Of a stretch of DNA of 64,000 nucleotides, positions 29,304 through 38,519 are shown in pieces. The position numbers were made by a program, and so were the translations under genes. The stretch spans positions 1 through 64,000 of the forward strand of contig CAMYLV010000018.1 in the NCBI GenBank assembly GCA_947259495.1, in the 5' to 3' direction. Position 1 is the first letter of the stretch; the number at the start of each line of letters is the position of its first letter. The notes under the pieces were generated by a model. It made no database searches, had not been told where the DNA came from, and was given only the letters and a program-made list of their open reading frames with translations. This DNA is from an uncultured Desulfobacterales bacterium. Lineage in GTDB: Bacteria > Desulfobacterota > Desulfobacteria > Desulfobacterales > JAHEIW01.

Positions 29304-29636
29304 ATGGAGACCTACTATAAGCCGGAAGATCTTCCCCGGTTTGAAGAAATCGGTCAAGAGGCGCCGGAACTGGCGCGTAAATTTTTTGAATATTACAATG
29401 CCGTTTTCGCCGATGGAGAGCTGAGTGAACGCGAAAAATCGCTGATTGCCCTGGCGGTCGCGCATGCAGTCCAGTGCCCTTACTGCATCGATGCTTACAC
29501 CCGGGCCTGCCTGGAAAAAGGATCCAACCTGGCCGAGATGACCGAAGCCGTCCATGTCGTCACCGCCATCCGCGGCGGGGCTTCCCTGGTCCACGGGGTT
29601 CAGATGCGCAACATCGCGGACAAATTATCAATGTAA
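29304..29636 (+). CDS. AhpD-like (CMD family) protein of the ArsS/selenodomain cluster
   Basis: 110 aa. The AhpD/carboxymuconolactone-decarboxylase motif is HAVQCPYCIDAYTRACLEKG, with redox pair CPYC. This short family typically sits beside radical SAM proteins of the ArsS type ('peroxidase-like' partner). Probably a thiol-dependent redox protein. Only 19 bases separate its stop from the next start at 29656. Confidence 0.85.
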   Translation: METYYKPEDLPRFEEIGQEAPELARKFFEYYNAVFADGELSEREKSLIALAVAHAVQCPYCIDAYTRACLEKGSNLAEMTEAVHVVTAIRGGASLVHGVQMRNIADKLSM

Positions 29637-29655: not shown

Positions 29656-30666
29656 ATGCCTGATCAAACAACCATAGCCGACATAAAACCGTCTTCGCAA
29701 GCCAAAGCGCCCGATATCGTGCCATTCAAGTCCAGCCTGGCCAGGCATGATCTCAAGCTTGTTCGCCAGACGACTGCGACATTGCAGATCAATCTGGGCT
29801 TTTTGTGCAACCAGACCTGCCGCCACTGTCATTTAAATGCCGGGCCGGGCCGTAAAGAAAATATGGATGCGCAGACGCTCAAGGCGGTGGTGGCCTACGC
29901 GCAGCGATGCCGTTTTGCAACCATCGATATCACCGGCGGCGCGCCGGAACTTAATCCGCTGCTGCCGGATTTGATTCAACAGATCGCACCGCTGACATCG
30001 CGAATCATGCTGCGCTCAAACCTGTCGGCCCTGCATCAAAATTTTGATCCTCTGATGGGCGTGCTCAAATCTCACCGGGTGGTCATCGTGGCATCATTTC
30101 CATCGCTGAACCTCTCCCAGATGGATGCGCAGCGCGGAGAGGGTATTTTTGAAGAAAGCATCGCCGTGCTCACAGCGCTCAACGCCCTGGGCTACGGGTG
30201 TGATGGAACCGGTCTGGAACTCAACCTGGTCTCTAATCCCACCGGTGCCTTTATGCCGTCGGGCCAGGAACAAATCGAAAAAAGATACCATCAAATTCTG
30301 AAACAAAAATGGGGGCTGACGTTTAATCGCCTGTATAATTTTGCCAATGCGCCGCTGGGCCGCTTCAAACAGTGGCTGATCCAAACGGGCAATTTTGAAA
30401 ACTACATCAACAAGCTGGTTGCCAGTTTTAACCCCTGCGCGATCGAAGGGCTGATGTGTCGAAGCCAGGTTTCGGTCTCCTGGGACGGCTACCTGTACGA
30501 CTGCGACTTCAATCTGGCGCGGGGCCTTTTTATGTGCGGCAAGAAAATCCACGTATCCGAGATGTCGGGGCCACCGGAGCCCGGCACCCCCATCATCACC
30601 GCCGATCACTGCTATACCTGTGCGGCCGGCTCGGGCTTTACATGAGGCGGCGCCATTGCAGCCTGA
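29656..30666 (+). CDS. arsS: Radical SAM protein ArsS/rSAM-SeCys, selenoprotein
   Basis: 336 aa if TGA at 30643-30645 is read as selenocysteine (residue 330), else 329. Radical SAM motif CNQTCRHC (C-x3-C-x2-C) near residue 53. The C-terminal DUF3641-type end reads CYTCAAGSGFT-U-GGAIAA, matching the family consensus CxxCxxGxGSxCxG, where the last Cys is often Sec. A hairpin CCUG-AGUU-CAGG (30662-30673) places a loop G 22 bases after the UGA, within the usual bacterial SECIS spacing. Start chosen at ATG 29656. Role in arsenosugar-like or unknown modification is inferred from family. Confidence 0.85.
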
Positions 30667-30673
30667 GTTCAGG
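30662..30673 (+). promoter_or_regulatory. Candidate bacterial SECIS hairpin
   Basis: CCTG (30662-30665), loop AGTT, CAGG (30670-30673). A G-U pair (30661/30674) can extend it. The loop G is 22 nt from the UGA. It overlaps the true stop of the selenoprotein and precedes the ribosome binding site of the next gene. Confidence 0.55.
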
Positions 30674-30686
30674 TAGGAGATACCCA

Positions 30687-32039
30687 ATGTCGACCACGCG
30701 GCCTGAACGCTTGATTGTCTTCACCCGCTTTCCCGAGCCCGGAAAAACCAAAACGCGTTTGATTCCGGTCCTGGGTAAATGGAGTGCGGCCCGCCTGCAG
30801 CGTCAGATGACCGAACACATTATCGCCACAGCGGCAACGCTAAATGGCCGAAACGGCCTGACCGTTGAAGTTCGCCACGCAGGCGGCGATGCCGGTTTAA
30901 TGCAGGACTGGTTGGGGTCGCATTTGATCTACCGGCCACAGGGCAACGGTCACCTCGGTCAGCGAATGCGAAGGGCTTTTGAGGCGGCGTTTCAGGAAGA
31001 AGCGGCGGCGGTGGTTATCGTCGGCAGCGACATACCCGGAATTTCAGCCGAGATTATTCAACAGGCCTTTGGAGCGCTTTATGAAAACGATCTGGCCCTT
31101 GGGCCGGCGCGGGACGGGGGCTATTACCTGATGGGCATCAGGCGAACCCTTGCGGCGAAAACCTATGGCCGGCTGTTTGACGGGATCGACTGGGGCACCG
31201 ACAACGTCCTTTCGCAAACCCTGCAAATTGCCAACGGTATGAAGCTCCGTTTGGCCCTGCTGGAATGCCTGGCCGATGTCGATCGGCCTGCAGATCTGCC
31301 CGCCTGGCATCAAGCGCAAAATACAGCGAACCATCAGCCGGGCGCACAAAAACTATCCATCATAATTCCGGCGCTCAACGAAGCCGCCACAATTGAGCGC
31401 ACCCTTTCTCATTTTAAAGGTGTCGAAAATCTGGAGGTAATCGTTGTTGACGGCGGCAGCGCAGATGAGACTGCCGCTCTGGCCGCATCGCAGGGTGCCA
31501 GAGTGATTCAGGCCAGCCCGGGCAAAGCCATCCAGATGAACAGCGGGGCCGCAGCGGCAACAGGTGAGGTGCTGGTCTTCCTGCATGCCGATACACTCCT
31601 GCCCGTAGACTTCAATCATCAGATCGTTTCGGCCCTGAATCAAAAAGATGTTGTGGCCGGCGCCTTTCGCTTGGCCATCGATTCGAGCGCTGCGGGTATT
31701 CACTTCATTGAGCGCATGGCCGATTTGCGCTCCCGCTATTTACAGCTACCATATGGCGACCAGGCCCTGTTTATGAAAAAATCAATTTTTAAAGCCATCG
31801 GCGGTTTCGCGGACCTGCCGATCATGGAGGACTTTATACTGGTACGCCGCTTGAAAGGCAAAGGCCAAATCGTGATTTTGCCCGATGCGGTCATCACCTC
31901 GCCACGACGCTGGCTGCATTTCGGTATTTTAAAAACATGGCTGATCAATCAGATGATCATCTTCGCCTTTTATTTGGGCATTTCCCCTGAACGACTGGCT
32001 CGCTGGTACCGCCGCGAAGCCGGTAAAAGCGGCAATTAA
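30687..32039 (+). CDS. Fused DUF2064 (GT-A) and family-2 glycosyltransferase
   Basis: 450 aa from ATG 30687 (GTAGGAG upstream). Residues about 1-210 are a CofC/DUF2064 domain (LIVFTRFPEPGKTKTRL, IVGSDIPGI, GPARDGGYYLMG). Residues about 220-450 are a TIGR04283-type GT2 (LSIIIPALNEAATIERTL, VVDGGSADETAALA, LHADTLLP, YGDQALFM). These are the two 'rSAM/selenodomain-associated transferases', usually separate genes, here fused. Probably builds the sugar part of the product of this cluster. 20 bases after the selenoprotein stop. Confidence 0.88.
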   Translation: MSTTRPERLIVFTRFPEPGKTKTRLIPVLGKWSAARLQRQMTEHIIATAATLNGRNGLTVEVRHAGGDAGLMQDWLGSHLIYRPQGNGHLGQRMRRAFEAAFQEEAAAVVIVGSDIPGISAEIIQQAFGALYENDLALGPARDGGYYLMGIRRTLAAKTYGRLFDGIDWGTDNVLSQTLQIANGMKLRLALLECLADVDRPADLPAWHQAQNTANHQPGAQKLSIIIPALNEAATIERTLSHFKGVENLEVIVVDGGSADETAALAASQGARVIQASPGKAIQMNSGAAAATGEVLVFLHADTLLPVDFNHQIVSALNQKDVVAGAFRLAIDSSAAGIHFIERMADLRSRYLQLPYGDQALFMKKSIFKAIGGFADLPIMEDFILVRRLKGKGQIVILPDAVITSPRRWLHFGILKTWLINQMIIFAFYLGISPERLARWYRREAGKSGN

Positions 32040-32057
32040 ATATGGAGAAAATTGAGC

Positions 32058-32237
32058 GTGTGGAATAGAAGAAAATTTTTAAAGTTAACCATAGCCGGAC
32101 TGATCAGCACGACGGGCATCTTTTCTTTTCTGCAGCGCTACAAACAAAAAACCATAGGTGCAAAAAACAGTTATGCGGCCCTTCTGGAACACGAGATAGA
32201 TCACCTTAACGGCGTGCTCTATATCGATTACGCGTGA
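32058..32237 (+). pseudogene. Tat signal joined to peptide-deformylase C-terminal tail
   Basis: 59 aa. GTG start with GGAG ten bases upstream; a TTG at 32052 is also possible. WNRRKFLKLTIAGLISTTG is a Tat-type signal. After about 15 residues comes LLEHEIDHLNGVLYID, the metal-binding C-terminal helix (HExxH) of peptide deformylase. The catalytic GxGLAA and EGCLS motifs are missing, so the enzyme cannot work. Most likely an internally deleted gene whose parent had a Tat signal and a deformylase domain. Confidence 0.6.
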
Positions 32238-37505: not shown

Positions 37506-38519
37506 ATGAACCTGGCCAGGTTTCCCCGCCGCCGCTACACCGAAGGCAATACCCCGATTGAAAAACTTCCCCGGCTATCTGCAGAGCTTGGAGGACCCAC
37601 GATTTACATAAAAAGAGACGATCTGCTGGGACTGGCCGGAGGGGGCAACAAAACCCGCAAGCTGGAATTTCTGGTGGCCGAGGCATTGGAACAGGGCGCT
37701 GATACATTGATCACCTGCGGGGCGGTGCAATCCAACCACTGCCGCCTGACACTGGCAGCAGCTGTCAAAGAAGGGCTCAAATGCAGGCTGGTTTTAGAAG
37801 AACGGGTACCCGGCAGTTATCATCCGCAGGCCGGCGGCAATAACTTTTTGTTCCGCTTGATGGGGGTCGAAAAGATCACGGTTGCTGTCGGTGGCTCCGA
37901 CATGACAGCTGCGATGCAGCAAGTCGCAGATGACCTCGCCGACGAAGGCCGGAATGCCTATATTATTCCCGGGGGCGGATCCACCCCGCTGGGCGCCACC
38001 GGTTACGTGGCCTGTGTGCAAGAAATTCTGGCCCAGACCTTTGACCTGGGGATCAACATCGATCGTGTCATTTGCGCCAGCGGCAGTGCCGGAACCCATG
38101 CCGGCCTGGTCACCGGTTTTTACGGCAACAACAGCAATATACCGGTAATCGGGATCAATGTCAGCCGCTCCCGCAATGAACAGGAACAGCTGGTATACGA
38201 GCTGGTTAAGGCCACCGCTGCTCATGTGGGTATCTCTGCGGACATCCCCGCCCGGGCCGTGCGCTGCTATGACGAATATGTCGGTCCGGGATATTCGCTG
38301 CCTACAGCTGAAATGGCAGAAGCCGTGCGGATGCTGGCCGGCCTGGAAGGCATCTTGATGGACCCGGTTTACACCGGCAAAGCCATGGCCGGATTAATCG
38401 ACCTGGCCCGCAAAGGCGCCTTTCAAAAAGATGAAAACATTCTTTTTCTTCACACCGGCGGTTCCCCAGCGCTGCATGTCTATATGGACCAAATATTGGG
38501 CACGGGGCATCAGACGTAG
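37506..38519 (+). CDS. dcyD: D-cysteine desulfhydrase-like PLP enzyme
   Basis: 337 aa, AAGGAGG upstream. RFPRRRYTEGNTPIEKLPRL, IKRDDLLGLAGGGNKTRKLE (PLP Lys in GNKTRK) and SGSAGTHAGL are the ACC-deaminase/D-cysteine desulfhydrase pattern. LEGILMDPVYTGKAMAGL near the end matches DcyD. It releases H2S, pyruvate and ammonia from D-cysteine; L-cysteate sulfo-lyase (CuyA) is a close alternative. Followed by an Asp/Glu racemase gene. Confidence 0.75.
   Translation: MNLARFPRRRYTEGNTPIEKLPRLSAELGGPTIYIKRDDLLGLAGGGNKTRKLEFLVAEALEQGADTLITCGAVQSNHCRLTLAAAVKEGLKCRLVLEERVPGSYHPQAGGNNFLFRLMGVEKITVAVGGSDMTAAMQQVADDLADEGRNAYIIPGGGSTPLGATGYVACVQEILAQTFDLGINIDRVICASGSAGTHAGLVTGFYGNNSNIPVIGINVSRSRNEQEQLVYELVKATAAHVGISADIPARAVRCYDEYVGPGYSLPTAEMAEAVRMLAGLEGILMDPVYTGKAMAGLIDLARKGAFQKDENILFLHTGGSPALHVYMDQILGTGHQT

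Follow-up and report, generated by a model that had tools for sequence, protein, structure and literature searches.

Does the TGA at 30643–30645 end a radical SAM protein, or is it read as selenocysteine (Sec)? The question arose on the forward strand of the window, the whole stretch of 64,000 nucleotides analysed from a contig of an uncultured, sulfate-reducer-like Desulfobacterales bacterium. Read directly from the sequence, the frame starts with ATG at 29656, reaches the TGA after the residues ...CYTCAAGSGFT, continues through GGAIAA, and ends with a second TGA (30664–30666). Ordinary ORF calling ended the gene at 30645, seven codons early. Both the premature end and the continuation to 30664 had been claimed in a sequence-only reading and were seen again here. 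With very high confidence, the locus is best explained as arsS (29656–30666, forward strand), encoding the 336-amino-acid radical SAM selenoprotein ArsS, with Sec330 recoded via a SECIS hairpin.

The arsS gene, its family and its neighbors

With the TGA read through, the product matched the NCBIfam profile TIGR04167 with 368.3 bits (curated cutoff 300 bits) over profile positions 2–303 of 303, which bore out the proposed ArsS/rSAM-SeCys membership. The full name of this profile is 'rSAM_SeCys, arsenosugar biosynthesis radical SAM (seleno)protein ArsS' (NCBIfam). Since the match runs past the TGA to the profile end, the residues after the TGA belong to the family. PF12345 (DUF3641) was also matched, and the N-terminus from ATG 29656 was similar to that of a relative (G003). 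The radical SAM motif CxxxCxxC corresponds to C51, C55, and C58, which were invariant in 50 sequences; the C-terminal Cys/Sec motif CxxC..GxG..(C/U)xG was present in homologues of the family as well as here. The TrsS radical SAM (seleno)protein profile NF045646, whose radical SAM family likewise includes selenoproteins, was rejected (20 bits vs. a cutoff of 490).

The gene lies between others named for the same pathway. Upstream, at 29304–29636 on the forward strand, a 110-amino-acid arsenosugar biosynthesis-associated peroxidase-like protein is encoded (TIGR04169, perox_w_seleSAM; 191 bits, cutoff 120), and a similar gene of the same length precedes arsS in relatives G001, G003, and G005. Downstream, a 450-amino-acid fusion of two arsenosugar glycosyltransferase domains, TIGR04282 (CofC-like) and TIGR04283 (MftF-like), starts with ATG 30687 and runs to 32039 on the same strand (202 and 262 bits, respectively, each exceeding its cutoff), in agreement with the associated transferase fusion named earlier for this gene. 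Gene order after isocitrate dehydrogenase seems to be shared with relatives G001 and G003.

Two further observations concern the surroundings. At 32052–32237, a 61-amino-acid ORF has a Tat-like/hydrophobic N-terminus followed by just the 31 C-terminal residues of a peptide deformylase (HEIDHLNG). In relative G001, the matching position holds an apparently intact protein of this type with 186 amino acids (L176:4304-4864), so the short ORF looks like what is left after an internal deletion. The genome also encodes an ordinary deformylase, at G000:C10. The sequence at 37506–38519 strongly matched D-cysteate sulfo-lyase CuyA (530 bits vs. a cutoff of 450), which suggests that cysteate may be used as a sulfite source.

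UGA 30643 as a predicted selenocysteine codon

The machinery for Sec insertion was found complete in the genome: selA (524 bits), selB (358 bits), selD (359 bits; G000:C2:224486-225409, L010), and tRNA-Sec (selC; 75 bits vs. a gathering threshold of 47). A genome devoid of selABCD, which had been named as an argument against recoding, was thus not what we found. The selD gene carries an in-frame TGA of its own (TCG-U-AAK). The presence of selA was rejected as a separator of Sec and Cys forms, as the gene occurred in 54 of 56 genomes of the class, Cys-form ones included. An ArsM-like methyltransferase (L174:1501-2235; G000:C14:41243-41977) also has an in-frame TGA, in the context SWAQ-U-EGGA; selenoproteins of the arsenite methyltransferase type are listed with the motif UxxG (PMC13188914), which this context matches. 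Judging by its sequence, the methyltransferase is probably a second Sec protein of such kind in this genome.

The codon for Sec330 (30643–30645, forward strand) lies in the motif C319xxC322..GxGxxU. In the 67 tails parsed, which came from relatives and from the nearest genome_contigs matches, the codon at this column was TGA in 61, TGC or TGT in six, and TAA or TAG in none; as the species are related, these counts are not independent events. Three tails missed by the script (L058, L062, and L153) were checked by eye and had TGA as well. Of the 80 best genome_contigs matches, 77 had a tail parsed to a codon, which was TGC or TGT in 70 and TGA in seven. Distant homologues also carried TGC or TGT, and in the class-wide sample, most matches spanning the profile end contained a single in-frame TGA and the others had no such codon. 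When the TGA was read as Cys, residue 330 was an invariant Cys in both alignments, of 19 and of 50 homologues. The Cys-form tails from genome_contigs include those of two close relatives: Geobacter sp. OR-1, which has GFTCAG, and a Nitrospinota MAG, in which the tail reads GFTCGG; as read from the aligned codons, this is a classical Sec/Cys exchange. The frame therefore stops where the family consensus has its last Cys, as first proposed, and the converse case, homologues that all end at the same Thr, did not occur, as Cys or TGA stood at the exact column.

Codons 3' of the TGA varied mainly at third positions. The +2 codon specified Gly in 61/61 cases and made use of each of the four third bases; the +4 codon specified Ile in 59/61. 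Since Gly was kept with varied third bases, the stop was always TGA, and the stem pairs of the hairpin covary, the pattern is not due to chance. We infer Sec insertion at UGA 30643: the sel genes, the constancy of TGA, the exchange with Cys, and the covarying hairpin described below uphold the original claim that this codon likely codes for Sec; it is almost certainly read in this way, giving full-length ArsS. In one homologue (L058:3700-3960), the HCYxCxAG segment is apparently missing, possibly by a deletion or an assembly error, and GFT-TGA-GGAITA together with the CCTGAGTTCAGG hairpin is kept.

The putative SECIS hairpin and the stop codon inside it

The putative bacterial SECIS hairpin G-CCUG/AGUU/CAGG-U occupies 30661–30674 on the forward strand and is supported by covarying outer pairs, the fold of the downstream stretch, and the fit to a model in loop size, G, and spacing. 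The CCUG-AGUU-CAGG core at 30662–30673 had been pointed out earlier, with a loop G 22 nt from the UGA, and its positions were confirmed: the apical G is at 30667, 22 nt downstream of the final A of the UGA, and a fifth pair, G.U, is formed by 30661/30674. The published model of bacterial SECIS elements has a loop of 3–9 nt, a stem of 4–16 bp, a G in loop position 1 or 2, 16–37 nt between UGA and loop, and a minimum free energy of −7.5 kcal/mol or lower (PMC13188914, Fig. 2). The element at 30661–30674 agrees with it in the loop (AGUU, with G second and then U), the stem (5 bp), and the spacing (20 nt). A search of Rfam at low stringency around TGA 30643 gave nothing useful.

Covariation was analyzed in 38 sequences in the same register, chosen for a common core, so that the inner pairs were selected and only the outer pairs count. 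The two outer pairs changed in step; at columns 19/32, AU was found in 20 sequences, UA in five, GU in four, GC in three, and UG in one. The hairpin scored 0.251 for covariation, with 15 cells altered on both sides; shuffles scored 0.122 ± 0.023, and slid registers did not exceed 0.139. Pairing faded past about six pairs.

An unconstrained single-sequence fold of the 48-nt stretch 30643–30690 gave a different shape (−12.1, z −0.25) vs. −10.1 with the hairpin enforced; the hairpin alone gave −5.4 and the exposed stretch with its neighbors −6.4 kcal/mol, weaker than the −7.5 limit of the model. The hairpin was the minimum-energy structure if the stretch started 12–17 nt after the U of the UGA, a start that represents the assumed effect of a ribosome sitting on the UGA. 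Exposed 25-nt folds had a mean of −7.9 kcal/mol vs. −3.1 in mononucleotide shuffles. One detail was corrected for 30643–30690: the hairpin was not the minimum-energy structure of the whole stretch, for which covariation was used in place of the fold, and was recovered with the start 12–17 nt on.

The true stop UGA (30664–30666, forward strand) lies within the stem and loop of the same hairpin. In 54/61 relatives, the terminating codon was likewise a UGA inside the hairpin, 5–6 codons past the Sec codon (mostly CCUGAG), and the next gene starts 21 bases past the stop UGA. From the sequence comparison, a single putative hairpin would recode the first UGA, and the second lies within it. A narrow search of the open-access literature found no published account of a stop inside a SECIS element.

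Three other explanations of UGA 30643 were weighed. It could be an ordinary stop, with the protein ending at Thr329 and the hairpin acting in regulation or in ribosome pausing ahead of the following gene. The location of the hairpin just 5' of that gene's start, a single-sequence fold that does not favor the SECIS shape, and the automatic ORF call ending at 30645 would suit such a stop; however, all 61 stops at the column are TGA, never TAA or TAG, coding conservation goes on past the TGA, homologues have Cys there, and the genome has complete Sec machinery. We regard an ordinary stop as very unlikely.

The codon could also stand for some amino acid besides Sec, through readthrough or an altered genetic code. 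A readthrough frame does exist, but this explanation is scarcely credible: homologues exchange the codon with Cys, they conserve the SECIS-type hairpin, selABCD are in the genome, and the terminator 21 bases on is UGA too. The chance of a sequencing error or a mutated Cys codon in the assembly is practically negligible: a single base separates TGC and TGT from TGA and the genome is a multi-contig draft, yet dozens of genomes from other species share this TGA, and in them a conserved, covarying hairpin follows it at a nearly constant distance. Selenocysteine at position 330 of ArsS is therefore retained as the preferred explanation.

Possible role of Sec330 and significance

Cx9-15Gx4C is the signature of SPASM/Twitch auxiliary-cluster domains. 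In the C-terminal domain of ArsS, C268-x9-G278-x4-C283 and C319-x2-C322 were invariant in 50 sequences, and the top Foldseek matches were SkfB and SuiB; profile searches of ArsS reported no SPASM profile, the Cx9-15Gx4C-like spacing and CxxC being present. The predicted structure had a mean pLDDT of 90, with residues 331–336 below 50 and Sec330 not placed. Sec330 would substitute for the Cys conserved in the family, on a flexible tail after the Cx9Gx4C...CxxC array. From this position, Sec330 may serve either as a ligand of an auxiliary Fe-S cluster or in the binding of As(III).

ArsS is predicted to join the 5'-deoxyadenosyl group of SAM to dimethylarsenite, and a review citing Cheng et al. 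(2021) states that arsenic is adenosylated by a radical SAM enzyme in oxo-arsenosugar biosynthesis (PMC12159101). For this lineage, the arsenic substrate is predicted from family naming. The peroxidase-like protein and the glycosyltransferase fusion would serve the same pathway, and an ArsM-family methyltransferase elsewhere in the genome, for which a complete frame is present at G000:C19, would supply methylated arsenic.

'Radical SAM domain protein, TIGR04167, AAR34688.1' is among the predicted selenoproteins (PMC9312934, PMC13188914), with the motif given as GxxU (PMC13188914). The listed protein and the one described here are alike in reaching the C-terminal end of the profile, in the GxxU motif, and in their TIGR04169, TIGR04282, and TIGR04283 neighbors. 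The ArsS characterized by Cheng et al. (2021) has the same family name. No family-defining difference was found between the listed ArsS and that of the window, which adds one species and an explicit SECIS element. The enzymes studied by Cheng and colleagues are reportedly Cys forms, and we know of no assay of the Sec form. The window ArsS is thus a correct selenoprotein call within an already catalogued family and, as TIGR04167 is already listed as a selenoprotein family, will not surprise specialists.

During translation, the hairpin 30661–30674 would be free while the ribosome is at UGA 30643, and SelB with Sec-tRNA-Sec would bind it and insert Sec. The ribosome would then read GGAIAA, open the hairpin, and terminate at UGA 30664 inside it, a codon with no SECIS of its own behind it. 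It is conceivable, although rather unlikely, that Sec330 is a working selenolate (auxiliary Fe-S ligand or trivalent-arsenic binder) and that the stop within the SECIS element ties full-length ArsS, and also the reading of the gene that follows, to the supply of selenium. The finding corrects a gene end that was off by seven codons, the invariant Cys/Sec included. With a covariation-supported SECIS element and a recoded and a terminating UGA under one hairpin, the locus would offer a simple system for tests of decoding discrimination.
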